From Fragilaria crotonensis (taxonomy: Eukaryota; Bacillariophyta; Fragilariophyceae; Fragilariales; Fragilariaceae): a stretch of DNA of 52,088 nucleotides. The position numbers and the translations under genes are program-made. The stretch covers positions 1 through 52,088 of the forward strand of contig JAKSYS010000446.1 of assembly GCA_022925895.1 (NCBI GenBank). Reading direction: 5' to 3'. Position 1 is the first letter of the stretch; each line of letters begins with the position of its first letter. Under the pieces are notes generated by a model. The model made no database searches. It worked only from the letters and a program-made list of their open reading frames with translations, and was not told the DNA's origin. Below, piece by piece: positions 10,331 to 27,483 of the stretch.

Positions 10331-12891
10331 TGCTGGGTTTGCGAACAGTTTTCTCGTTTCGTTCTGCGTGTCCTTCTTCGAATGTACTAGGCACCTTCCT
10401 AGTATATCAAACACTGATGTTGAACGATTGGTAACAACGATAATCAGCAATCCGTTGTACAGCAAAGGTAGATGACAAGAGATTGATGTTCGATTGAAAG
10501 AAAAAGAGGAGTTGACAGAATGCAGCGGTCTATATACCTGCTGTATTGCTATTACCGGCAGTACTACACGACCACCTAGTACTTCCTGCATGCCCGCCTC
10601 GGAGTCGATCGTACGGGCATCTCGGTATGCTGTGCATACTCGCAAGCTCGCAAGTCGCAAGTCCTGGTATTGTGTGTCATACACTCTGTACGACGGAGCA
10701 TACCTCGTCTATTGCTTGTATGAATATGCATAGTCTCGTATGTACTACAGTAGGTGTGTCAGATTCGAGATTCAAAAAAATCTCTATTGATAACTGCTGC
10801 GCAGTTCGTGGAGCGAACGGCCTCCGCGTGGCTCTCGTTCCTTGGCCGGATCAATCATTGGGATATGGTGACAATTGTCACAAGCATGAGTTACTGCGTG
10901 TAGTACCAGTAGCGGTATGTTGGTATTTGGTAGTAGTATGTTTCATTTGCCGTTCGCCATCCGCCAGATTCGAATGCAATGAAATGACGACCTCGCACCT
11001 CACTCTACCGGTACCGGGTACTGATGTACTGATGCCTTGGTATACGACGTAAGTTCTTCGTGACTACAGTACGACAGAATGTAGAATCGTGATCCCCTAA
11101 AACAGCAAGAACAAGAGCAGATATCGTACAACTGTACTCAGAATCCCAATCATAGCCTTGCTGGCTCTACATTGACGAGTGTTTCTCCACAACTCTTTTG
11201 GTAAGAGCATCCCCACCATTGTAGCAAAATCTTAGTAACAACCCAGTTGGACCTTTTTGGTCAATAATTTTGTCCAAAATGCACGGAACAGCTAGTGGAA
11301 AGAATGTATAAATTCAAAAGAAACTACCACCAAAGACCTCATTTGTGATGACAATGATGTTCACAGTATAATCATGCGCATTATGCAGGACCCCAATACT
11401 CCTGATGATAGCAGTGATAGTGACATGAACAAGGGGGGGTGCAGCAATTGAATCTGCAACTCCTCTTGTTTTGGGGTAGTACTAGTGGATCTTGGGTTGG
11501 AAGGCACACAATGTTTGCCATCGTGGAGTGTGTTATTCTCACCTTCTCTTCAAGCATGACTGTTGGGGTCCTTTGCATGTTTAAAATTCCACTTATTCCA
11601 AGTGATTCTTCAAATTCTTCATTGGGATAGTTGACAAAATTATGACAAAGGCTTATGCAAAGAATGACAGCTTCTCGCATAAGAAGAAGGATGCTCCGGT
11701 TGGAACGATGGGATTGCCTGAACTGAAGAAGCAAGATCTGTCCCGCCATGACAAACATCGAATTGGACTGAATTGTATGTGCAAACCATGGACTTGTTTG
11801 ACCATTTGTTGGATGAAGAAGGATGCCAAACAGGGTTCCCAGGAGGATGCCATTCTGGATGGATCTAAAATATCTTGCTCATGAGGGACTGCTGCTGGAA
11901 GGATGTTTGTCAGACAAATCATCATGCTGGCTCTTATTTTTTGCTTTTAGATGATATTGAGATCACATCATTATAAATCTATCATTGGACGATTTTATAA
12001 CTGGATATGCTGCTGTATCATCTTTGGGTTTCTTCTTGGAGCATTGTTTATATGTTTTTGTTCTACGCGTGACGCTCCTTCTTCTTGAATCCCTCCCTAT
12101 GAATGACTCACTCTGGTATTTCCTCTGATAAATTCAGGGAAAGCATCAAGGTTTGGGGATTGTGGAGTTCTGGTCATGGCAATAGCAACAAGAAGCAATG
12201 CAGGCAGGCATGTGGTCGTGCTGGCAAATCATTTGAACAAATTTTATTGAGACGTCATTACTCCCATTGTTGATACAGCACTTATGAACCCCAATGCCAA
12301 CTGCTGGAATCGATCAAATTTGTACCTTGTGTTTCCATGAGGTACAACGCCATCAAATTTATTCCAGGTATATCCTAAGGGTACAAAGAATCCCCGAGTG
12401 GGGTAGTGTTTTAAAAACTCAAAAAGTAGTACTCAAACTCCTTTATTGTGAAGGAGGATCACTCATACTTACCTTCTCCAGGAAGAGGTGCAACATTTGG
12501 GTCTGGGTCACAGGCATCCATGGTGGTGGGATGTTTTCCTATGAATGGAGGCACATCATTTTTTGTCTAAAAGCTTGTTGATGAATATTCAAACTCGCTC
12601 ACCAGGATTTGATTTCATGCATCCAAGCAAGTGTAGCTTTCATTTAGTTCTACAGGGATTGACATGATGTTTTTAGGGAATGCCGGAATTATTCCTTATT
12701 GAGGGGTTCAGTTATGTCATTGATTGGGACAGAGGGAGTGCTGATGATTTATGATTAGCAGCCAGTATGCTCTCGTAGCTAGTTGAGGAGGGGCACCACC
12801 GTTAGTGCCGGGTACCAGCCACAGTCCTATTCATACCTTGTCGTCCTCGTTGTCTTGCTGAACTGGTATCTGGTATCATACTAGTGCTACT
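10331..12891. other. Long gene-poor stretch, partly AT-rich and decayed
   Basis: No gene is supported. From about 11200 to 12780 the base composition turns AT-rich, GTAC words disappear, and several broken frames on both strands (for example 11381-11758 minus and 12294-12581 plus) look like remains of an old inserted element. The same texture recurs at 26.4-27.1, 32.6-33.9 and 51.3-52.1 kb. I cannot name the family. The DNA before 11100 is GTAC-rich spacer. Confidence 0.45.
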
Positions 12892-15482: not shown

Positions 15483-15531
15483 GGATCCTTTCAGAATGCA
15501 CTGAAATGACGTCATTTATGACGTCACAGTA
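15483..15531 (+). repeat. Second, outer copy of the left terminal repeat
   Basis: This segment matches the left terminal inverted repeat 81 bp downstream at 38 of 49 positions, starting GGATCC and ending CACAGTA. It contains two TGACGTCA palindromes (15507-15514 and 15519-15526). It may be an older end, or a tandem duplication of the terminus. Confidence 0.6.
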
Positions 15532-15595
15532 TACCGATCCCTTGACGAACTGACGAACGTACAGGATCCGATTAGAATGCAAGGAAATGACGTCA
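15507..15595. promoter_or_regulatory. Three CRE-like TGACGTCA palindromes
   Basis: Perfect TGACGTCA sites lie at 15507-15514, 15519-15526 and 15588-15595, with a fourth in the right terminal repeat at 26014-26021. In diatoms TGACGT elements bound by bZIP factors mediate CO2/cAMP responses. The sites lie 480-570 bp upstream of the DUF6824 gene and inside the element ends, so they could serve either. Their role here is inferred. Confidence 0.45.
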
Positions 15596-15612
15596 GCATT
15601 TTCGTCACAGTA
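15564..15612 (+). repeat. Left terminal inverted repeat
   Basis: It is the inverted partner of 25997-26045, differing at repeat positions 4, 5, 33, 40, 44 and 48. Positions 6-32 are identical in both and include TGACGTCA (15588-15595 here). This is too long and too exact to be chance at a spacing of 10 kb. Confidence 0.8.
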
Positions 15613-15865
15613 ATGAAGCTGCGTGGGACCATCATGTAGAGCACCTGTGACACGCGTAGGCCGAAGAAAACACGGAATCTTCGTTTCTCATTTCTTTCGT
15701 TGGTTTTCCAATACGCCTGCCCAGCCTCTGTCACGCCAGCCAGTTATTTTTTGAAATTTGTTATGAATGCAACAGCATACGTGACATACGTGATACGACA
15801 CTCCGTTGGTCTATGATAACGGAATGATTTCCCTTGCTACGTGTGCATATGATGTTTAGCCCTGG

Positions 15866-16165
15866 GCCGCCACACGTACAACAGGGCGGCTTTTGCGGAT
15901 TTTTTTCTACCACTAATGCCGCCACACGTACAACAGGGCGGCTTTTGCGGATTTTTTTCTACCAGTAATGCCGCCACTAGTACAACAGGGCGGCTTTTGC
16001 GGATTTTTTTCTACCAGTAAATGCCGCCACTAATACATCACGGCGGCATTTGCGGATTTTTTTCTACCACTAATGCCGCCACTACCTTAGTACAGCAGGG
16101 CGGCATTTGCGGATTATTTTCTACCAGTAATGCCGCCACATGTACACGACGGCTGCATTTGGGAA
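15866..16165 (+). repeat. Hairpin-repeat array 1 (six units)
   Basis: Units start at about 15866, 15918, 15970, 16023, 16075 and 16132, a period of 52-57 bp. Each conserved block runs from GGCGGC through TTGCGGATTTTTTTCTACCA to AATGCCGCC. The block ends are inverted repeats. Variable segments of about 13-18 bp lie between blocks. The array lies beyond the 3' end of the minus-strand GNAT/DUF6824 gene. The last unit is degenerate. Confidence 0.9.
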
Positions 16166-16242
16166 TAATCGTCATCATAACTCATCACACCTTAATACAT
16201 ATCAAGCAACAATGTTGTATGAACTAATATATTTTTCAGTGT

Positions 16243-19200
16243 CTATGTGTTTGCCTTTTCTTCTTCATGCGCGTTCCTTACTTCTTCTTCGCCAGTCTGC
16301 TCTTCTCTGTCCACATCGCTTGTGGACATTTCAGCTGCCTTTCTCTTCGCTCTTGGTTTCTCGTAATCTTTTAATGACTTCCTCACCTTTGTGACAATTT
16401 GTTCGCGCGGCATTTGCTTCCAAACACCGTCCTTGTCCTTGTGGACAAAAGTATATTCTTCTTTTTCCAAGTCTTCAACCAATCGCAATGTAATTCCCTT
16501 CTTTCCATCCGGCGATGCATTCTTAAACTCCGATGCGACTTGGGAAATCTTTGTTCGATACACAGCATTATAAGGATTGCCCTTCGCCTCATTTCTTTTA
16601 CCACACACAATTGCCCTTCCGGCTGGTGCTCCGTCCATCTGTACAAACGGACCTGGTGGTCTTTCTAACTTTCCCAACAACTTCTTGCTGCTTTCGCTCT
16701 TGTCGTGAGTCAGACGTTGCATGCGTCTCCTCATAACATCGATTGCAGATTCGATGCTCATTTCCTGCCATCCGCCATGCGTTGCTTTCTCCTCAACAAA
16801 TCGAAAGCCTTCCTTTCTCAGTGTCATTACAATGTTTTTCAGAAGATTTCTTTTCTTGTCCGTCCCCATAAGCTTATCATATTGTGTAGCAAACTCGGAA
16901 GTGCGCTGAAGGTATGACCTTGGTGGCTTTGTCCCACGACCTATATCCATGTTGCCAAGCTCAAGAATAACGATAGGTGATTCTTGTTCCAAACTCTGCC
17001 TTATGCACGTCATTGTATCAAGTACGAGTGGAAAACGTTTCTTGTCGTGTAACATCCTGAAAACTGTCCACATCACTTCCTCTTTTGCCTGTTCCGAAGT
17101 ACTCGTTCTAAAGTCTTCAGCGCAAATCCTAGCCAGGGGAGCAATATCCATCACAGATGGATAGCCGACACACGTCACAACTGTGTTGTGACGCCTTCCT
17201 TCAATTGACAAATCCCCCAATGTGGGTGAACCTCTGACAGTCTCCTCATTGTTGCAAGTATCATGCGGCGGCAACGTCTTTTTCCCTTTTCCTTTTTGTG
17301 TCTCTGACCCTTTTCTTGTTTTTTCATCTGTCGTGCCACCCAACGATATCCTTCCAATAAACTTATCGTTGGGTGGCAGAGGCGCATCTAATGCATCCAA
17401 AGGAACTCCCCTTCTCTGCCTAGTACGCAGCGTCTGCAACCTTCTTAACGGCGTCGTCTGAGACTCAGTGTTTCTCCTCCTAGGCTTTCTTGGCAACATC
17501 TTTCGAATTTGTTCTGATTCCAATTCGACTCCCTCTTCAATGTCGTCCTCATGTTCGATCTCAGAATCTGTGTCAACCAGATCGTTTAAGCCTGCATCCA
17601 AGGGCACTCGCACGGTCTCTTTTGGCTGTGAATTTTCTCTGGACGATTCCGGAAAAGATTTCTTCTTCCGAAACTCGTTGTTTGTCATCAAACTCTTTCG
17701 AACACCTGCTGGAGCCACCGTTACTTGCACGTTCCCTTGCTTTCCGGAATTCTTACCAGTCGAGTTATGAATACAATTTTTTGCCTTTCGCTTTTGGGGG
17801 ATTGTCTCTCCCAGTTGTTCTGAATCCGATTCGATTTTTTCTTCAATCTCAACGATGTCAGAATCCAAAGCAACGAGAGAGTCTAATCCTGCAGCCACGG
17901 GAACTACCACATTCAATGGTTTCCATGAATTACCACCACCGCACAAGTCGGAAACCTTTTGTAGGTTGAGGCATTTTGATTTCTTTGTGATCCTTGTTAT
18001 TTGGAATGATGAATTTCTGATACTCGGTTGCCTCTTCCCGAGACGATCCCAACTGGGTGCTTGCAATTCTGTCAATCACTTGAAAGATGCATAACCGCAT
18101 GCCCTTAAGAAATGCAGTCAACTTTGCTTTCTGACTGGGAATTGAAACGCCCATTCCTGATAGTGATACCTCATTCTTATCGTGTTTGAAATTGATGCTC
18201 TCCAACGAAAGACAAAAATCTAGAAGAGAAACGAACGCCAAGATTCCACTTTCGTTCTGCAATTTTCCCTTCTGTTCAAGGAGAACATGATACGCATTGG
18301 GAACTTTCAAACACAGGAAACGTCCATGCTTAACGTCATCGTCGTCCTTGTTGTTCAGTGTATAACCAAAATTGAAGTCTGCCGTTGTATAAAGATCATG
18401 AAACTCCTCCATGGTTTGAAACCATGGTGCGATCACCTCATCTTTCAATGATGTGGCTTTGGCACTTCTTTTCTCACCTACTTTGGTAGGAATTGCTTGG
18501 ATTATCAGGTATGCAAACGTGAGGAAAAAACAGCACTGCACTGGCGCTGCACAATCGTCGTCCGTTGGATCAAAGTGCAGAAAACCACATTCAGTACCAC
18601 GTTTTTTGTCAATCATTCCCGCGTTTACCGACATGAAACATGACCACGACGAATCTTCATCATGTTCTACCATAATCGCAATGTAGGGCTTGATGAATAG
18701 GTTCTTGTTCTGCAAAACATAACTCAGCACTGGAATGGAGGCATCCATGAACCTCTTGTAATCAATTTTTGGATGAAATGTAGAGAACGATGTCTCGACA
18801 TCCTGCCCATCATTCGTTTCAATCATGCGGCGAGCACTGCAATACAAACTGAAAAGCACCTGCATTGTCGATACATTCCTCATGATGTCAAGGGGAATAA
18901 TTGTTAGCATCTCCCTCCAAATCTTTGCTTTCTTGTGTCGCTGAACCCAAGCAATGATAACCTCATAGACATCAACTGGAAAATTTTGATAACCTGTCGC
19001 CCAGCATCGTGAAAGCCAACAAACACTAGCCTCTACATTCCCAAGCGTTATTCCACCATAGAAGACTTCGTTTTTTAGCACTGATGCTGCACCTGACGAT
19101 TTGATGTCCGGAGCGCAATGTTCGACGTCATCCAAACATAGTTTTCCTGGTAGACGAGCATATGTTGAATGCTCGTCCATCTCATTCGGATCGGGATTGC

Positions 19201-19891
19201 TGAAAAATCTCGTCTTGTACTGGAAGAACGAGGTTGATCCAAATTTTCCATGTAGCCACGTCAAATCTTGGCTGTATCCCAAATAGTTGTGGAGGGGACT
19301 CGTGTCAACCTCATTCGAAAAAGCGTCTTTCAAACCCGACGGAAATGGTAGTGTCTCATTCTTCTCACGAAATCCGCGGTTAATATAAAAATGAAACGCA
19401 TTATGATTTTGCCTTTCGTTTGCCTTCAGATACATGTGAATCGTGGCCTTCCCCCTCCTTACCCGGAGTACTTCGTACACAAGGGAAAGCATGAACGATG
19501 CCATTCCATAACTTGTATGATTGGATAATGTTCCCAGGAACAATACTACCGCCCACTCGTTTTGTGCCAGGAAGGTTATGGCACAGACTGCTTCTGTTTT
19601 TTTTCTGTTCAAAACAGCAATTGTTTCACCCTTGCGTAATGCAGGCAAAATTGATTGACGATCTGAATATTCGTCGAATATGGAGTGGTACAATGAATGC
19701 ACAAGATGACTCACATCATTCGACTCTTCTTCACCAACGAAATGAACAACATAATATTCCTGAAGCCACGTAGGACATTCTTTCTTTTTTATGCGAGGGT
19801 GCCATTGCACCATGGCAATGAATTTCTTAAAAGCTGGTGATTCCTCCCCATCAAAGGGATGGATGCCTCTTACATTTTTCATTTTGGACAT
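16243..19891 (-). CDS. Large cargo protein: GNAT-like and Ulp1-like regions plus DUF6824-like repeats (one frameshift)
   Basis: Two overlapping open frames (19969-17930 and 18075-16243) appear to be one gene. The second has no ATG for 129 codons, and removing one A near 17982-17986 joins them into about 1,215 residues. From ATG 19891, the first part has a GNAT-like core (VLFLGT...YGMASFMLSLVYEV, then NAFHFYINRGF). Further on is a stretch suggestive of C48/Ulp1 proteases (DSSWSCFMSVN, GFLHFDP, APVQCCFFLTF); this is tentative. The second part has acidic repeats and two regions resembling DUF6824 (GRGTKPP...GFRFVEE...W and CGKRNEAKGNPYNAVYR...YTFVHKDKDGVW). A basic tail with KPRAKRKAAE follows. 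The true function is unknown. The break may be a sequencing error. Confidence 0.6.
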
Positions 19892-19983
19892 GCTGTAGCT
19901 ACTGGTAGAAGTAGTCGTGGCGTCGATGGGCGGGATTTGTGGATAATATGGTACCAGCAATGCACCCAAGTAATTTAATGAAT

Positions 19984-20260
19984 GCTGCCAAGATGCGGCA
20001 TTTGCGGATTATTTTCTACCAGTAATGCCGCCACTCCTAGACGTTGGCGGCATTTGGCGGCATTTGGCGGCATTTGCGGATTTTTTTCTACCACGAATGC
20101 CGCCACACGGACAGCAGGGCGGCAATTGCGAATTTTTTTCTACCAGTAATGCCGCCATACTGACAGCAGGGCGGCAATTGCGAATTTTTTTCTACCAGTA
20201 ATGCCGCCATACTGACAGCAGGGCGGCAATTGCGAATTTTTTTCTACCAGTAATGCCGCC
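19984..20260 (+). repeat. Hairpin-repeat array 2 (five units)
   Basis: Same unit and orientation as array 1. One unit contains GGCGGCATTT three times in a row (about 20046-20075). Three units carry the variant AATTGCGAATTTTTTT with nearly identical loops (ATACTGACAGCAG and similar). The array lies between two divergent genes, upstream of both starts. A degraded unit in the other orientation overlaps 19930-19969. Confidence 0.9.
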
Positions 20261-20307
20261 ACTTGCGAAAATTCAGTGCGTCAGTGGCGCAAACGTCATC
20301 AAAGAAC

Positions 20308-20347
20308 ATGTTGTTCAGAACTGCACTCCAGCAGTTCTGAACAACAT
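20308..20347. repeat. Perfect 17-bp stem with a 6-base loop
   Basis: ATGTTGTTCAGAACTGC (20308-20324) and its exact reverse complement (20331-20347) flank ACTCCA. The palindrome lies between array 2 and the dioxygenase-like gene. As RNA it would fold into a stable hairpin. Confidence 0.85.
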
Positions 20348-20390
20348 AATTTGCCATCTCATTGTTAGCGGATGTTGAAGGATCAACGCG

Positions 20391-20780
20391 GAAACCTTTG
20401 TGAGGCGTAGTACAGTTGTGAAAAAGGACACCGCTAGCCGTGACATTGTTCATGGTAGCAGCAGATCCGAGATCAACGGGGAAACGATCATGAGGCGTAG
20501 TACCGTTGGGAACAAGGACAGCGAGGAAACCTTTGTGAGGCGTAGTACAGTTGTGAAAAAGGACACCGCTAGCCGTGACATTGTTCATGGTAGCAGCAGA
20601 TCCGAGATCAACGGGGAAACGATCATGAGGCGTAGTACCGTTGGGAACAAGGACAGCGAGGAAACCTTTGTGAGGCGTAGTACAGTTGTGAAAAAGGACA
20701 CCGCTAGCCGTGACATTGTTCATGGTAGCAGCAGATCCGAGATCAACGGGGAAACGATCACGAGGCGTAGTACCGTTGTG
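20391..20780 (+). repeat. 135-bp tandem repeats, just under three copies
   Basis: Copies start at 20391, 20526 and 20661 and are nearly identical. The 135-bp period is divisible by three, so it encodes 45-residue repeats (RRSTVVKKDTASRDIVHG and so on). Each repeat contains two related halves sharing RRSTV. The opposite strand is also open across the repeats. Confidence 0.9.
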
Positions 20781-21881
20781 AAGACCGACAACTCCTCTAT
20801 CTTTGATGTTGGCAGCACCAAAAAACAAGGCTTCCAACACGTGTACAAATCAAGGAACACTACTTCAAGTTGCAGAGTCCAGGTGGCGTACAACTTGTCA
20901 GTACAGTACTGTTATCCTCGAAGCAAGCAGGCGGTGAAACGCGATAAAGCAAAGAAGAAGAAGATAGATTGCCTGCAGATCATTTCTTCATCACCACGGC
21001 ATGCACTGTGCAAGGCCTTCTTCTTGAGCAGTAGACCTATCTTCTATAGTGGAACACTGGACACGACTGCGATCCTTCCACATAATATTGGTAATCCAAT
21101 TGTTCTATCGGTCACTGAACATCTGCAAGTTGTTGACACTATTTCTGGAGCCCGATTGGAATCGGCATGTGGAGACACTGTATTCACGTTGATTCCGAGA
21201 CAGGCTGCGATCAACAAGTTGACGCATGTCAACAAAACAATCATCTCGCTTTACGCACTAGAGGACGCGCAAACAAAAGCTGAAGTACGAGGAAAGAAAA
21301 GGGTTACAATTTCAGAAACGGATGGAAGGTACACAACCGTCGGTCTAAAACCAAACAGAGGTACTCCTGGCATTACAGAGTCTTGGCCAAAGAAGTTAAG
21401 CGTATGCGCGCGGAAGAATATTTGCAACTTAATGACTAGATGTGAAGAAGTTGCAAAAGGGTACATACCCTCAAATGCAATGCGAGGACTGCGAATTGCA
21501 CAATTGCTTGTGGATTGGCCAGAAATTGACGGAATTGCATCGCAGGCTATCTGGGGAAGTCTTGCCTGCGGAAAGAATTACTACTTGAATTCACATTTGG
21601 ACGATGATTTCTTTTATTCCTTGACTACCATTGCTTCTGAATTTGGACTTCAAGAAGATGTTGATAAATACAGAATGGATGCGAAAATCTGCAACTACTT
21701 CACATTTGCAGAACAAGGGATAGCTGTCGCGCTGAGGCCGGGAGATATGCTTATTTTCAATCCAAGATATCACCACTGCTTGTCATCACGCACTGACTCT
21801 TACCGATGTAAGGATGTTTTTTGTCTATCGTTGTATCTGAAAACTGCAATTGTAGGAGGAAATGACAACTCACAGCCCTGA
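20490..21881 (+). CDS. 2-oxoglutarate/Fe(II) dioxygenase-like protein with N-terminal 45-residue repeats
   Basis: The frame opens at GTG 20400, and the first ATG is 20490. The N-terminus is the 45-residue tandem repeat, then a lysine-rich linker. The C-terminal 250 residues look like a double-stranded beta-helix oxygenase: HLDDDFF (HxD at residues 399-401 counted from 20400), LRPGDMLIFNPRYHHCLSSR (distal His near 458-459, Arg near 464), and a closing FCLSLYLKTAIVGGND. The layout is reminiscent of TET/JBP-type or other DNA/protein hydroxylases, some of which travel with fungal DNA transposons. The substrate cannot be told from sequence. A later start, after the repeats, is possible. It lies between hairpin arrays 2 and 3. 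Confidence 0.6.
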   Translation: MRRSTVGNKDSEETFVRRSTVVKKDTASRDIVHGSSRSEINGETIMRRSTVGNKDSEETFVRRSTVVKKDTASRDIVHGSSRSEINGETITRRSTVVKTDNSSIFDVGSTKKQGFQHVYKSRNTTSSCRVQVAYNLSVQYCYPRSKQAVKRDKAKKKKIDCLQIISSSPRHALCKAFFLSSRPIFYSGTLDTTAILPHNIGNPIVLSVTEHLQVVDTISGARLESACGDTVFTLIPRQAAINKLTHVNKTIISLYALEDAQTKAEVRGKKRVTISETDGRYTTVGLKPNRGTPGITESWPKKLSVCARKNICNLMTRCEEVAKGYIPSNAMRGLRIAQLLVDWPEIDGIASQAIWGSLACGKNYYLNSHLDDDFFYSLTTIASEFGLQEDVDKYRMDAKICNYFTFAEQGIAVALRPGDMLIFNPRYHHCLSSRTDSYRCKDVFCLSLYLKTAIVGGNDNSQP

Positions 21882-21912
21882 ATAACAACATTTGTTGCGG
21901 CTGTATTAGAGT

Positions 21913-22476
21913 GGCGGCATTAGTGGTAGAAAATATTCGCAAATACCGCAGTGATGTATTAGTGGCGGCATTAGTGGTAGAAAATAATCCGCAAGTGCCG
22001 CCGACGTCTAGGAGTGGCGGCATTACTGGTAGAAAAAAATCCGCAAATGCCGCCGTCGTGTATGTGTGGCGGCATTACTGGTAGAAAATAATCCGCAAAT
22101 GCCGCCGTCGTGTACATGTGGCGGCATTAGTGGTAGGAAAAAATCCGCAAATGCCGCCCTGCTTGTACGTGTGGCGGCATTAGTGGTAGAAAAAAATCCG
22201 CAAATGCCGCCCTCTTGTAGGAATGGCGGCATTACTGGTAGGAAAAAATCCGCAAATGCCGCCGTCGTGTATGTGTGGCGGCATTACTGGTAGAAAATAA
22301 TCCGCAAATGCCGCCGTCGTGTGCAAATGGCGGCATTACTGGTAGAAAATAATCCGCAAATGCCGCCCTGCTGACTAACGTAGTGGCGGCATTTACTGGT
22401 AGGAAAAAATCCGCAAATGCCGCCGACGTCTAGGAGTGGCGGCATTACTGGTAGAAAATAATCCGCAAATGCCGCC
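21913..22476 (-). repeat. Hairpin-repeat array 3 (eleven units, inverted)
   Basis: Eleven units of 51-58 bp run in the reverse orientation relative to arrays 1 and 2. The block reads GGCGGCATTA, TGGTAGAAAATAATCCGCAA, ATGCCGCC. Loops GACGTCTAGGAGT and GTCGTGTATGTGT each occur twice. Several loops are exact reverse complements of loops in arrays 1 and 2. The array lies between the 3' ends of the dioxygenase-like gene and the transposase. Confidence 0.92.
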
Positions 22477-22550
22477 GTCTACCGTGAGCATGTGCAACGT
22501 GAAACGCCTAAAATACAATGTTTACCATACATCTATGACGCAACATCACT

Positions 22551-25510
22551 TCAACCACACCAAGCCGAAACTTTTGATTTCTTCACTTTCCCAACAGGGC
22601 ATGATGACACCACTCCACCAATGGGTGGTGGTTTCTCGGACGCAAGGTTTGCCTTTTCAACAGAAATAAGCTTGTCGAGAGCTTCCTCGACCGCTAGTCC
22701 ACGCTCTCGGCAGTTTTTTGATGCCGCAACAATACTCACTAGCTCCTTTACTCTTGGCATGAACATGTCGTATGGATTGTAAAACAACGAATCTGGGAAC
22801 TCGTCCTGATGGTGAACACGTGATCCAAAGTCAATACAATCACTATCCACTTTGGATTTGATGAGCCAGGCATCATCGTCATCATCGTCATGGTAATCAT
22901 CGCCACTGCCGCCATCATGACAGTCATCACCCAATTCATGCTGCAAATGAACTTCTTGGGACATGGAGATTGGAACATTTGTTGAACTGTGCTTAAGGGC
23001 AACCATCACCTCATCCCGTGAGTAGTTTATTACCTGGTTGATTACGGAGTCTTTTTTGAAAAGTAATGCTAGGCAGCGTTCTGTTGCATTCCGAAATGTA
23101 TCATTCGAATTCTGTCCAAATTGATACACACGACGAAATGGTGAAACTGTGTGGTCATGGTTCTTTTCTGAAAAGGTAGGTCCTCGGCACTCATTTCCTC
23201 GAAGTGTGTCCAACTCTCTTTTTATGTCAGCCTCAGTAGATGTGCAATCGTGGACATTCTTCATTGCAAAGTACAGATACGCTTTCCACCAACGTACTGA
23301 AATGTCGTGGTGAGTGATCACGGACTTGGCCGCATAGTACATCTTTACATGTACCAAATGCTGGCACACCATGCCATTGCATTCAAAGTACTGGCAGTCA
23401 CACAGGAGACAGCGACGATCCTCAAAAGAATGCAAAGTAACGGTGTACACTCTATGAAAACGGGGTACCAATGAATGCACCTCCCGTTCAACAGACCTGA
23501 CAACAAGCCACCTGTCGTTGCTTGTTCTCCAAGACGCATAGTTCTCGCACTCCCGAATAGCAAATTTCAACATGAATTCTGCTGGGAGAGTAACATCGTT
23601 GACAGTCAGTGAGGTACTCCAGGTTGCTCTTCCAAGCAACGCCGTAGCAAGATGACGACGATAGAGGTCAAACTTGTTGCAATCCATATCCAGCTGAATT
23701 TTTGCCGATTTGTCGATTGCATGCTGTGGAAGTACACGGGAAGGACCAGATTTGATGGCGTGATTGGTCCCTTCATGACCAGAGTTCGTAGTGGTTTCAA
23801 AGTGCCTAACGCCCTTCCGCAAGTAGAAACAATAACTTTGCTCATGTGGAATGATACAACCACGGATGAAGTCCAACAGTTTCTCTCCACCATCATCGCC
23901 AAAAATGGCCTTAATAACATCTGACTTCAAGTAAATAATTAATAGGGCCTTACTTCTGTAGTCACATCGATCATGTTAGGTACAGTCAACAACATACATG
24001 TGGATACCCACCAAATAATTTGACTTACACTTCATATTCTTCTTTGGAATCTACCCCGCGGCGCATCCAGCTATACAGCCAGTTTTGAATTACTCTCACC
24101 TGACTTCTTGCAGCATCTCTCTTTCCCTTCCGAAAGCCTAAACCTCTACATTCTCGTCTCCAGCCTTGATGAACAAGATGCCATCCACAGCGACTACGAA
24201 CTGCATTGACAAGATATGTCGCAATGGCATAGTCGACCTGCGCCATTTCTTGGGAGTCGCCATCTGTCATGACAAGCTTAACCAACCGCAGCGTTTGAGT
24301 ACCTAAGAGCACAGGAAGGGCTTCTTGAAATAACCAACGGAACAACCAAGATCTTTCATTTGGGGCAAAGCATCTGACCACTACCATCACATTTCCGTCC
24401 GAGTCCTTGACAGAAAGAGTAAGCAAGGGTCTGCTTTCATTGTTTGTCTCATGCGTCCCATCGATGCAAACAACTTCTGGAAAGGCTTGAAAGAGACGTC
24501 TACCATCTGGCAACACCCAGCAACATGCAATAAGAATGTCCTGGTCGTCCCTTGCTCCGACAGGCGTGCCTGCTTCTCTGGGCATATTCCTTGAAATCGG
24601 CAGTCTCTGTGACCTCCAGAGGTACAGACTTATGGGCTGGGGCGCTTTCCATTGTGGTCACCATGGAAAGGCTCGTTAGATTAACCCCATCATCAACAGG
24701 ATTGCCTTCGGTTCGTGCAGCCTTGCGATTTTGACCACGCATTTCTTTCGTATTCCCATTATGAAACAGACAGACAAATGATGCACCAATTTTTTGGAGA
24801 TAATTCAGCATACTGTCTGACGGTGACATATCAGAGGGTAGTGCAGCACCCTGAGGTGACGAATCCATTAAATCTTGTGCCATTCGGGAGAAACCTTGAA
24901 CATAAGCCATCTGTCCGCGTGTAAACAGCTCACCAGTACTGCTTCGGGTGAACAATGCAGCTTGTGAGGGCAGGATATTGGCAGCAGCCATTGCAGCTGC
25001 ATTTTCCAGGGTTGGAGCGTCCAGAAAACGTTTGCGATTGGTTATCTCGTTACGAGACATGGGTGGGTGACCCCTATGCTGGTTGTCTCCGACCCCACAG
25101 ACTAGATGAAAGCTGTACTGGTCCAGTCGGATGACAATTTTGGCAGAACAAGTGCACCTTGTATCGCGTTGCGTGCAATTACGTCGTCGCAATGCCTTTC
25201 CTGAGTTATTGGAACCACGAGAGTTTTTTTTGTCACCAATATAGGTTGTCACACGATAAGCATCGGCTTGGGCACCATCCAAACGCTGATGATACTTTCG
25301 GCCGTTACTGCACAACAAAACACGTTGGTCCTTGCAGGCTTTAGCACTACTTCCATTAGATATCAGAGCACAGTTACCATGAGATCTGGCGGCTTGGCAT
25401 AAATCAGTGATAAGTTTTTGGCCTCCAGAATCCTTGCGAATCCTCCCACAGTAGGGTACAGCAATGGACTGAAGCGCACAATAAACTTCATGGGGCCTTT
25501 GTATAGGGAA
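22551..25510 (-). CDS. Mutator-like (MULE) transposase with SWIM zinc finger; 5' exon and one frame break unresolved
   Basis: Coding segments run from about 25510 to 24031 and from 23924 to 22551, with a 106-bp intron (24030-23925). The N-terminal part has a FAR1/WRKY-GCM1-type zinc-binding region (RRNCTQRDTRCTCSAKIVIR, then CGVGDNQHRGHPP). Next comes the MULE DDE core: CIDGTHETNNE, ERSWLFRWLFQ, VMTDGDSQ, and the C-x-H motif RCGWHLVHQGW. A SWIM finger follows (CDCQYFECNGMVCQHL). A one-base shift near 24550 (GGG run) separates the zinc finger from the core. An acidic linker and a short tail end the protein. The first exon is unclear: a tag-terminated frame stops just before 25510, so an upstream exon (perhaps 25682-25511) is expected. 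Confidence 0.8.
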
Positions 25511-25996
25511 CTAGTAGTGTACTCGAACAGGTCGTGCTTCGTTTCCGATGAGGCACAGAAATCTTCGGAAGGTAAGCAAAGGTGTCCATTGAATGGGAGC
25601 GACCCAATCCACGTTGCAGTCTTGAAAGCAGTTAAAAAAGCATCCACAGGCTTTGTAGGGGAAACTACTAACTTGTCTGGATCCTAAAGGCAGAAAAACG
25701 AATGGAGAGAGCATCGTGTGAGCATCGAAGAGTATTTTGGGAAAGCAACACGGATTGAAGCAACAAAAACAAACGAACCATGGTGTGGACCATAAAAGGT
25801 TGAACCTGTGGTAAATTGTGGCGGAAATGTTGTGGGTATTCAATGTTATTATCACATTTACAGACGGATATTTTTATTACTGTTCAAACAAATGTCGGGC
25901 AGATTTATGTTCCTTATCCATGACGAAGTTTTGACTAAGGTTGCTTGAAAAATGGCTCCTGTTGAAGCGAAAAAATGAAGATTCCAAAAAGTTAGA

Positions 25997-26045
25997 TTCT
26001 GCGACAAAAATGTTGACGTCATTTCCTTGCATTCTAATCGCTTCC
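25997..26045 (-). repeat. Right terminal inverted repeat
   Basis: Reverse complement of the left terminal repeat 15564-15612 with six mismatches. It lies about 490 bp beyond the 5' end of the recognisable transposase coding region, as expected for a MULE terminus. Confidence 0.8.
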
Positions 26046-27098
26046 AGTACCTACGGTCATAGCGATTGATGGGAAGACAGCAACAAAATAACCTATTTTC
26101 GTACCAGGTACTGTACTGTAAAGAATGGATTGGTGAATGCAATTTCTGTACAATTACAGAGTGGACAGGTGGACAGTGCACAGTGCTTTCAATTCGCTTT
26201 TTGAAGTCACATTTGGGTGACGTTTCATCTCCGGGGGACGAACGTTCGAAAAAGTTCCCGTGTCTATGATAGCCACACTAAAAAGGCAGTGTGACCCATT
26301 CAAAATGGAATCTGTGTGTGTCGATGTTGTGGCCACACTGCGTGAAACCCGGCGGAAATTAATGTTTTAAACATGTGTCTCAGTGGGCACACTGCCGATG
26401 CGCTTAAAACATTTGAATGTGTTGTCTAGTGTGTCAGGTTAAGACAATGTCTAAGAAGGTACATCTTTGCACTTGTTGAAAGGTATCACGTGGTTCTACA
26501 TTCCATAATTCTGCAAGAAGGATATCAAATTTTTCTGTGTACCTGGCTGGTACTTTCCAGCAGTATGATGATGTCAGTTGATCCTCAAACACTTAAGCAA
26601 CACCATGAGAGCATCCTCACAACAACCATTCAGCATTCCAATCCTCTGACAAGAAGGCAATTTCTTTTTTGGATGCGTAATCAGGAAAAGTGGAGTGTGA
26701 TTAGAACAGAAGGGAATCCAACAAAGAGTAAGGATGTCTTTGATCTGCTGCTGCCTTTCAAAAGTGGTGAAAAAGGAAGAATTGTGAAGCAGCCAGGGTG
26801 TGCAATCTCACTTAGCTACAATGTCTGATGGTAGGAAAGGAATTTGAGAGTACTATGCATAAAGTTTGCCTGAAGCTGGCAATGACAATGATAGTATGCA
26901 GACTACAGCTCACACATCATCATGGAAAAGGTCTGGTATCAGCAGAGTGCTTGTCAATTTTCAATTCCACATTATTGCTCAAATTGCTGAGTCCACCCTG
27001 GTTGTACTTGAGCGCATTTCTTATGAGCATGATAAATTCTCTTGTCATTCATTGAAAAATACAAATAAACTGGTCGAAGATGTGAACAACGAACAACA
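26046..27098. other. Decayed AT-rich DNA left of the retrotransposon
   Basis: From about 26420 to 27098 several frames (26490-26828, 26828-27055 and 26866-27117) look like fragments of a degraded coding element, unrelated to the composite transposon. The retrotransposon interrupts this DNA at 27098, and the same texture resumes at 32602. GGCAGTGTG near 26285 and CACACTGCC near 26393 form a short inverted pair. No family is recognised. Confidence 0.4.
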
Positions 27099-27483
27099 TG
27101 CCCTACGCGCGAAGTAATCAGTTTTATTTTTGGTGGCTAATTTGTAGCTAGTTTTAAAGGGGTTAATAGTTGCACCTTATTAAAAGTTATGAGACTAGTT
27201 TAAAGGCAAGAGAGCAGTCCCATTCTTGGTGGGATTGGACTGTTCTCTTTCATTCATCTAGGAGACTCAGTGAGTTTCCAAGAGATGTCAAACAGTTCTC
27301 ATTCTACTGTTGTACGGTTGTACTGTTGTACAGGATCAGTGTTCTATTGTTGCACTGTACTATGGTATTACTAGTCTACCGGTATATCCAAGTACTACAC
27401 ATGGCCATTGTATTGTAGTACTGGATACTAGTAATATAGTATACTGTATCGCACTACGCTAAGGGCACGTGCGGTGTACTGCA
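27099..27483 (-). repeat. 3' LTR of the Gypsy element
   Basis: 385 bp with TG...CA ends, nearly identical to 32213-32596. Confidence 0.93.

Follow-up and report, generated by a model that had tools for sequence, protein, structure and literature searches.

Some fungal DNA transposons carry an oxygenase of the TET/JBP type, for which a role in the escape from methylation silencing has been proposed (PMC12730594). The element described here, from the diatom Fragilaria crotonensis, resembles these carriers in being a DNA transposon with a TET/JBP-type (TET-like) oxygenase gene. It differs from them in that the abstract of the fungal study names no MULE or MuDR element and its hosts are all fungi; its main text is also without the words "diatom", "tandem repeat" and "acetyltransferase". 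In Arabidopsis, the targets of VANC were reported to form tandem repeats that differ between related VANDAL elements (Hosaka 2017, PMC5735166). The F. crotonensis family shares with VANDALs the MULE type, a candidate accessory anti-silencing gene and non-coding tandem arrays that differ between subfamilies. However, VANC is described as a motif-binding anti-silencing protein (PMC5735166), whereas the effector in F. crotonensis would be an oxygenase with putative array binding.

The superfamily review of Dupeyron 2019 (PMC6446971) lists groups without target duplication, diatoms included. Its group 37, MULE-Diatoms, is entered as SWIM-type with "No TSD and not indicated", and agrees with the present family in diatom host, putatively in SWIM type, and in the lack of a listed target site duplication (TSD). 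The row for group 37 differs in giving one ORF, no other motifs and terminal inverted repeats (TIRs) of 123–124 bp, and it mentions neither cargo nor arrays nor target replacement. A minisatellite within or beside the transposase gene makes Rehavkus and aphid Phantom MULEs similar to our element, but Table 1 of the same review assigns them neither an oxygenase nor an acetyltransferase, and Rehavkus has a 9-bp TSD (PMC6446971). In the open-licence literature we found no TET-carrying MULE, no TET-carrying diatom transposon and no 6-bp target replacement.

Boundaries and Copies of the Element

The window analysed is the 52,088-nucleotide stretch of F. crotonensis contig JAKSYS010000446.1 (positions 1–52,088, forward strand; assembly GCA_022925895.1). 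Within it lies one copy of a diatom MULE family that is autonomous and mobile as a unit of three genes. The copy occupies positions 15564–26045 and is bounded by TIRs that match at 43 of 49 bases; in copies of subfamily B the TIRs are perfect over 32 bp. The left TIR, on the GNAT side (15564–15612, + strand), begins with the 6-bp end GGATCC followed by the core GATTAGAATGCAAGGAAATGACGTCA, an end type also present in other copies of subfamily A. The right TIR, on the MULE side (25997–26045, − strand), reads inward as GGAAGC followed by GATTAGAATGCAAGGAAATGACGTCA. The 49-bp inverted repeats with a 27-bp perfect core that had been proposed by a sequence-only reading are thus borne out. The left end's best match elsewhere within the window (15483–15531, + strand; 38/49) is a diverged related end that lies just outside the element, does not belong to the unit and is probably the remnant of a short family member. 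The 26-bp core has 167 + 150 matches at ≤3 mismatches in the 62.1-Mb assembly as compared to 0 + 0 for the reversed control, and is therefore not a chance occurrence.

Among the 31 MULE loci at least 69% identical to that of the window, the TET-like gene lies tail-to-tail within 6 kb at 21, the GNAT gene is in its canonical place at 16, and both are present in order at 13. Among loci of 45–55% identity the count is 0/10; the TET-like gene, and no GNAT gene, accompanies one of the two loci at 55–69% identity and 3/13 below 45%. These counts take one row per MULE locus, with 56 of 93 rows typed and secondary pieces left out; C130 contributes three loci, and two of these may belong to a single broken element. 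Three distant MULEs (30–32% identity) also have a TET-like gene in the same relation.

Two B copies, C105 and C183, are ~97–98% identical across 12.1 kb and end together at their 32-bp perfect TIRs, beyond which the flanks are unrelated. At twelve B loci, a perfect TIR core lies on either side. Ends without genes, which the initial reading had named as a refuting observation, do occur in the genome, namely as short paired-end derivatives (152–172 bp core to core in the 21 looked at) and as gene-poor array elements; being of these two kinds, they do not refute a mobile unit. The grouping of the genes into one mobile unit with chromatin-type cargo, as first suggested from the sequence of the window, is upheld by the order at 13 of the 31 close loci, by the 12 bracketed sister copies and by uninterrupted relatives of two 12-kb insertion sites. 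The term "composite" does not fit, as the genes belong to a single element rather than lying between two. The left and right flanks of the C270 element (22336–27465) match different loci, C191 and C361, so that some junctions may be rearranged or mis-joined.

Insertion Sites

The 8–11 bp TSD typical of MULEs is not seen in this family. Exact repeats of 4–11 bp were found in 0/43 end pairs at either possible boundary, outside the 6-bp ends or next to GATTAG. Near-repeats of 7–8 bp, with one mismatch and shifted positions, occur by C54, C198, C270, C17, C25 and C8; as their offsets differ, they are taken as chance and not as duplications. Spy transposons, which are related to Harbinger, are another case of eukaryotic DNA transposons without TSD. 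To our knowledge, no target loss has been reported for them.

Uninterrupted sites were sought as related sites in the same genome, not in other strains, with the joined flanks of 36 insertions plus part of one C57 flank. In three flank searches (5, 12 and 18 insertions) 40 of 169, 260 and 202 first-look candidates, respectively, were scored. The 5-insertion search covered 2274 of the 4095 bases prepared, and in the 18-insertion search one repeat made up 38 of 41 rows, so that further spanning relatives may have been missed. At least 8 of the 36 insertions have a relative that spans the junction: C54, C142, C150, C252, the C270 short copy, C304, C325 and C328. The spanning rows examined were 3/6 for C142, 5/17 for C325, 6/38 for C328 and the sole row for each of the others.

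The uninterrupted relatives are readable at six sites, and at each of them (6/6) the filled site lacks exactly 6 bp. These are the sites of C150 and C304 (12-kb B elements), C54 (a 6.6-kb A′ element), C328 (a 2.8-kb array element) and the C142 and C270 short copies. The loss was determined with 10-bp words at ≤1 mismatch at five sites and at ≤2 mismatches at C54, whose neighbour is 80% identical. One of the three C142 relatives (L110) fails the word test through a nearby change, and its alignment gives the same six bases. The C325 site is compatible with the loss of six bases plus a 4-bp repeat unit and was left out of the count; the C252 relative (78%) is not readable for base loss. The joined flanks of the window copy have no spanning uninterrupted match. 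Some sites are shared rather than empty: both C198 flanks recur at C376 around another copy, and the C105 right flank recurs at C495 beside another copy. At the six sites, then, elements of the family inserted without target duplication; 6 bp of the target were lost, and the elements carry their own 6-bp ends.

Genes of the Element

The MULE transposase gene (22551–25683, − strand) lies in pieces. The pieces are 22551–23975 with a SWIM-like C-x-C...C-x-H motif, 24025–24657 with the DDE region, 24500–25510 with a weak FAR1 match, and 25363–25683. The transposase domain PF10551 (E = 1.1e-11, 24025–24585, − strand) and PF21056 (E = 4.6e-13) are above the Pfam cut-offs, in line with the MULE transposase first noticed inside the ends. 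FAR1 (E = 0.0093) is under the cut-off, P0004 is without a Pfam match and the SWIM-like motif is assigned by eye only. Judged by the sequence of its transposase, the family is filed as MULE despite the missing TSD.

The TET-like ORF (20400–21881, + strand) has 493 codons, its start codon being uncertain. Its N-terminal part contains three copies of a 135-bp (45-codon) tandem repeat (20384–20788, + strand), with equivalents of 130–132 bp in C183, C878 and C305 and of 138 bp in C592, C84 and C783. The confidently modelled part, residues ~175–490 (20922–21869, + strand), is predicted to adopt the double-stranded beta-helix fold of the TET type. A Foldseek comparison with the PDB returned TETs in all of the first 21 rows (CcTet, TET2, NgTet1), with a best E of 9.7e-11. 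VIA Z scores are 19.5 for TET2 (282 aligned, 4.1 Å), 15.5 for NgTet1, 15.4 for CcTet and 15.2 for CMD1, followed by FTO/AlkBH3 at 11.3. The HxD...H iron ligands H399, D401 and H459 are near-invariant (90% or more) in 33 aligned TET-like proteins, as is R464, five residues past the distal His. By eye, the usual C-terminal place of the 2OG-binding Arg before S-L-V seems empty. None of the 33 members passes either of two Pfam cut-offs: PF12851 (Tet_JBP) reaches a best E of 0.04 (1/33) and PF20515 (2OG-FeII_Oxy_6) of 0.028 (2/33). The protein is therefore called TET-fold or TET-like and not a member of the TET family, yet the structure model bears out the 2OG-Fe(II) dioxygenase-like cargo of the initial reading. 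Relatives of the oxygenase were sought in viral contigs and in bacterial and archaeal contigs, and none was confirmed.

The GNAT-like/DUF6824 gene (16243–19969, − strand) consists of two overlapping frames, 17930–19969 and 16243–18075. Copy C860 has a single frame that runs through the GNAT part and roughly the first third of the DUF6824 part, which indicates one gene with break points that differ between the window and C860. The initial description of this cargo as GNAT/protease-like/DUF6824 holds in part. DUF6824 (PF20710) is matched with E = 1.5e-16 in ORF 16243–18075 (− strand) by two stretches, the best at 16366–16611, and is also present in C305 and C451. The GNAT part is weakly matched, by an NAA60 profile at E = 5e-4 and by Acetyltransf_1 at a best E of 0.0069 in one of five members; the homologue P0093 is named GNAT by its source, and the structure model of the GNAT region is unusable (pLDDT 36.6). 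The protease label is unsupported, with a weak resemblance by eye to Ulp1/C48-type proteases and no protease family among Pfam matches at E ≤ 10 in five members (HMMER filters on). The DUF6824 region has no match among PDB sequences, and no paper on DUF6824 was found in the open-licence literature.

All three genes show purifying selection between the window copy and B copies (dS 1.5–2.0), with dN/dS of 0.07–0.11 for MULE, 0.17–0.21 for the TET region and 0.28–0.34 for the GNAT region. Pairs with dS <0.02 or ≥2 and copies covering <45% of a region were dropped. Among close copies (dS 0.02–0.2) the TET median of dN/dS is 0.85 over 18 pairs and the GNAT median 0.79 over 20 pairs, from which it follows that many copies decay freely. 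The window copy gives 0.65 against C198 for TET and 0.63 against the decayed A copy C20 for GNAT. Many GNAT copies are broken. Most TET genes of A′ elements are damaged: C57, C270 and C786 have an internal gap, C169 retains a part and C54 has a frame break. None of these five elements has a GNAT match.

Repeat Arrays

As the initial reading had noted, the unit contains arrays; there are three, with units of ~52 bp. Slot i (15866–16173, ~5 units of 52 bp) lies past the 3′ end of the GNAT-DUF6824 gene, slot ii (19995–20262) separates the GNAT-DUF6824 and TET-like genes at their 5′ ends, and slot iii (21909–22479, ~11 units) the TET-like and MULE genes at their 3′ ends. All three slots are array-filled in both A (C388, C860) and B (C105, C183), with a unit of 52 bp in A vs. 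73 bp in B. C592, C84 and C783 have TET and GNAT genes, no array in the stretches examined and no MULE within 6 kb.

The stems of 176 array units average 7.93 of 9 pairs, as compared to 7.18 (maximum 7.38) when partners are shuffled among units; because the units are related, this covariation supports a dyad weakly and does not prove hairpins in RNA or DNA. The RNA folding z is −4.2, −4.5 and −5.2 for one unit each of A, B and A′, respectively, and −3.1, −3.1 and −1.6 for two-unit stretches of the window arrays. CpG gives a mixed picture as a sign of methylation: it is 0.90 in the element, 0.92 in the window and low, at 0.72, in the MULE gene, and it is also low in stretches with decayed copies (C198 0.68, C114 0.73). 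The observed/expected ratio of 1.16–1.36 in the arrays is uninformative alone, since it follows from the unit motif.

Interpretation

Beyond the observed mobility, the TET fold of the model and purifying selection, we favor, with a probability of roughly 0.55, a three-gene anti-silencing MULE unit that combines TET-like demodification, arrays as landing sites and 6-bp target replacement. The TET-like enzyme would most likely act on the DNA of the element itself, oxidizing 5-methylcytosine or a similar modified base, and, together with the GNAT-DUF6824 protein, would keep the element out of silent chromatin, as its predicted fold and the retention of these genes suggest. At their three fixed slots, the arrays of dyad units would most likely be bound by a DNA-binding part that the element encodes, either DUF6824 or the transposase, and so act as its landing sites. 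By analogy with VANC and VANDAL in Arabidopsis, such landing would address anti-silencing to the subfamily's own sequence.

It is possible, if not what we would expect, that the unit is mobile with all three genes and the arrays are structural or cis-regulatory (terminators, insulators or hairpin-RNA sources) and unconnected with the TET-like enzyme. They do sit between genes, and slot iii, with its tail-to-tail genes, is a place where one expects terminators; RNA of single units folds well, and the minisatellites of Rehavkus and aphid Phantom offer precedents among MULEs. However, two gene starts flank slot ii, slot i is outside the last gene, and a co-evolving binding site accounts at least equally for units that turn over between subfamilies while conserving the dyad. 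Rather improbably, the enzyme could make a protective or signaling base, as CMD1 or JBP do, e.g., to mark arrays or block host nucleases. TET2 and NgTet1 score as high as CMD1 or higher, and no second base-modifying enzyme was recognized in the element.

MULEs capture genes, and the many copies with broken cargo would suit captured host genes that hitch-hike as in Pack-MULEs, with no function for the element. This explanation is already disfavoured and looks unlikely, since order and orientation are kept between subfamilies at dS ~1.6–2.0, cargo dN/dS is 0.17–0.34 between the window and B, and the three distant MULEs keep the TET-like gene in the same relation. That the grouping is an artefact of nested separate repeats or assembler joins, as the two-locus flanks of C270 might suggest, is very improbable in view of the two 12.1-kb copies that are ~98% identical and share exact ends, the 12 bracketed B loci and the two uninterrupted 12-kb insertion sites.

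Significance

Extending the anti-silencing reading, we tentatively propose a sequence-addressed DNA demethylation of transposons outside plants and fungi, in which a TET-type enzyme would be guided by the element's own DUF6824/GNAT protein to dyad arrays diverging in step from one subfamily to another, in combination with 6-bp target replacement. Such replacement is unexpected for a DDE transposase and may explain why diatom MULEs are tabulated without target duplication. If the anti-silencing reading is true, TET-type DNA demodification was adopted by transposons of diatoms, not of fungi alone, with MULE as a further superfamily. It raises the testable questions of whether a mobile TET clears methylation from its own arrays and whether arrays and protein co-evolve. 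In that case, transposons would have repeatedly answered silencing by carrying an anti-silencing factor along with arrays, as plant VANDALs do.

Ends and copies of the element

The 49-bp inverted ends proposed for the element from sequence alone are borne out: 15564-15612 and 25997-26045 match at 43/49 positions. The 26-bp core of this terminal inverted repeat (TIR) occurs at 317 places at ≤3 mismatches in the assembly (62,107,879 bases, 881 contigs) vs. 0 for a reversed control. The two ends of family A, the subfamily of the window (contig C388; such handles denote contigs of this assembly and the copies on them), can be told apart: the GNAT side starts with GGATCC and the MULE side mostly with GGAAGC, C57 and C198 deviating. 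The short end pairs (n = 21 examined), which span 152-172 bp core to core and end mostly in GGATCC and GGTTTC, are gene-less derivatives. A diverged copy of the element end at 15483-15531 of the window, 32 bp beyond the left end, has an inner part that matches other genome places and is probably the remnant of a short copy. A lone TIR-core-like site (four mismatches) lies at 10967-10992; none of the window sites at ≤7 mismatches could be recognized as its partner.

In the sister subfamily B, C105 and C183 are ~97-98% identical across 12.1 kb and diverge abruptly at each end. Their ends form a 32-bp perfect inverted repeat, TCCGATTAGGTTTCACCAATTTGACGTCAGCA, which has GATTAG and TGACGTCA in common with family A and is found at 91 + 89 genome places at ≤3 mismatches (control, 0). 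Exact 32-bp repeats flank gene loci at C31, C48, C77, C93, C105, C150, C175, C183, C304, C451, C765, and C878, and the bracketed loci measure 11.9-13.0 kb core to core. C93 is an exception in that its 2OG piece has the opposite orientation.

Target sites

No exact target duplication of 4-11 bp was found at either possible boundary in any of the 43 end pairs with flanks. For 36 insertions the two flanks were joined and used as a query, which yielded a relative spanning the junction in eight cases. The six readable uninterrupted sites carry exactly six bases between the flanks that are missing from the filled site: AGTAAG (C142), AATGCT (a short copy on C270), AATGGT (a 2.8-kb array element on C328), CATGTC and CATGTA (12-kb B elements on C150 and C304), and TCCCCC (a 6.6-kb element of the related subfamily A' on C54, compared with an 80% identical neighbour). 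Two relatives were left out, that of C325, compatible with a six-base loss plus a further 4-bp repeat difference, and that of C252, which was unreadable.

Across 86 ends, the terminal hexamer lying outside GATTAG is well conserved (GGATCC 27, GGTTTC 15, GGGTCC 11, AGATCC 11, GGAAGC 9; other sequences 13). The findings are most simply read as a staggered target of 6 bp in which six bases brought by the element would take the place of the overlap. On occasion the bases of the target may be retained, and this would account for the odd terminal sequences. Dupeyron et al. (PMC6446971), in their entry for 'MULE-Diatoms', give 'No TSD and not indicated' and one ORF.

Cargo genes

Assembly searches matched 68 pieces to the GNAT ORF, 95 to the 2OG ORF, and 93 to the MULE domain, merged into 29, 50, and 56 loci, respectively, with each MULE locus counted once. 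Among the 31 MULE loci at ≥69% identity to that of the window, a 2OG gene lies tail-to-tail within 6 kb in 21, a GNAT gene downstream on the same strand within 12 kb in 16, and both are so placed in 13. Ten lack the canonical 2OG placement (C114, three loci on C130, C342, C35, C93, C361, C869, and C63), and four of these have a 2OG gene in another orientation. At more distant MULEs the canonical 2OG gene is present in 1/2 loci at 55-69% identity, 0/10 at 45-55%, and 3/13 below 45%, the last three (C12, C31 at 54-58 kb, and C497) all without a GNAT match. These counts across identity classes show that the association is a property of particular MULE lineages, not chance proximity.

The MULEs of C12, C31, and C497 are 30-32% identical to that of the window and have a TET-like gene tail-to-tail, which suggests that the MULE-TET link is older. 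On C592, C84, and C783, TET-like and GNAT genes stand head-to-head, 0.4-0.7 kb apart, with no MULE match within 6 kb; these are another lineage of the pair. The A' element at 22336-27465 of C270 joins two different loci by rearrangement or mis-join: its left flank is identical to C191 (100%) as far as the junction, whereas its right flank matches C361 (95%) from just past the junction and, by eye, from the junction itself.

The second cargo protein has a GNAT-like N-terminus (NAA60 profile, E 5e-4), a middle without assignment, and a C-terminal DUF6824 in two stretches (E 1.5e-16), the latter present in C305 and C451 too. The protease-like label given to it in the sequence-only reading found no support from the tools. 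The N-terminus of the TET-like ORF holds a 45-codon repeat (window 20384-20788); repeats of similar length occur in other copies.

Between the window and B copies (dS 1.5-2.0), dN/dS is 0.17-0.21 for the TET region (C305, C105, C878, and C183), 0.28-0.34 for the GNAT region, and 0.07-0.11 for the MULE; values for the TET region against the MULE-less pairs on C592, C84, and C783 are 0.16-0.29. Among close copies (dS 0.02-0.2) the ratios are mostly relaxed, with medians of 0.85 (TET) and 0.79 (GNAT). Such a contrast is to be expected if the cargo is required in active lineages and dead copies decay. The CpG evidence turned out to be mixed.

Dyad arrays

Arrays occupy three fixed slots: one past the DUF6824 end of the second cargo gene, one separating the starts of the GNAT and TET genes, and one separating the end of the TET gene from that of the MULE gene. 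Their sequence turns over between subfamilies. The layout comes from copies with all slots covered (C388 and C860 of A; C105 and C183 of B); C878, C305, C451, C48, and C93 have arrays in every slot covered whole. The A unit is 52 bp with the dyad GGCGGCATT/AATGCCGCC; the A' unit (C54, C57, C270, C786, and C169) is also 52 bp, with a related dyad altered on both sides; the B unit is 73 bp with the dyad CGACTATTTG/CAAATAGTCG. B arrays are absent from the matches listed for an A-type array query. In the stretches examined, C169 has one array and C198, C592, C84, and C783 have none. Single units fold stably as RNA. Gene-poor array elements occur on C328, C428, C586, C274, and C768, and three of the five retain a short fragment of the N-terminal repeat of the oxygenase gene.

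The element at 34322-40274 of C114 has A-type ends and an A-type MULE, yet its arrays are mainly of the 73-bp B type, with a remnant of two 52-bp units, and it gave no oxygenase match; arrays thus seem exchangeable between subfamilies. At 74071-75615 of C54, an extra MULE-type end in + orientation lies upstream of the A' element and is followed by a third array type with a 51-bp unit and a longer dyad.

Implications

The element first recognized from sequence is real, and richer than claimed: it is a mobile three-gene MULE with conserved cargo, whose oxygenase is placed by prediction in the TET fold. A parallel for the arrays is the Arabidopsis VANDAL/VANC system (PMC5735166), in which the targets of the anti-silencing protein VANC form tandem repeats that differ between related VANDAL MULEs. 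The nearest cargo precedent is the fungal TET/JBP transposons (PMC12730594); that paper names MuDR solely in its introduction, where it is said to carry other genes, and does not mention 'diatom'. The oxygenase may demodify the DNA of the element itself, the arrays may serve in recruitment, and the GNAT protein may have a role as well. This new MULE variant combines a TET-fold enzyme and a second conserved cargo gene with arrays specific to each subfamily and with 6-bp target replacement, the functions being putative.
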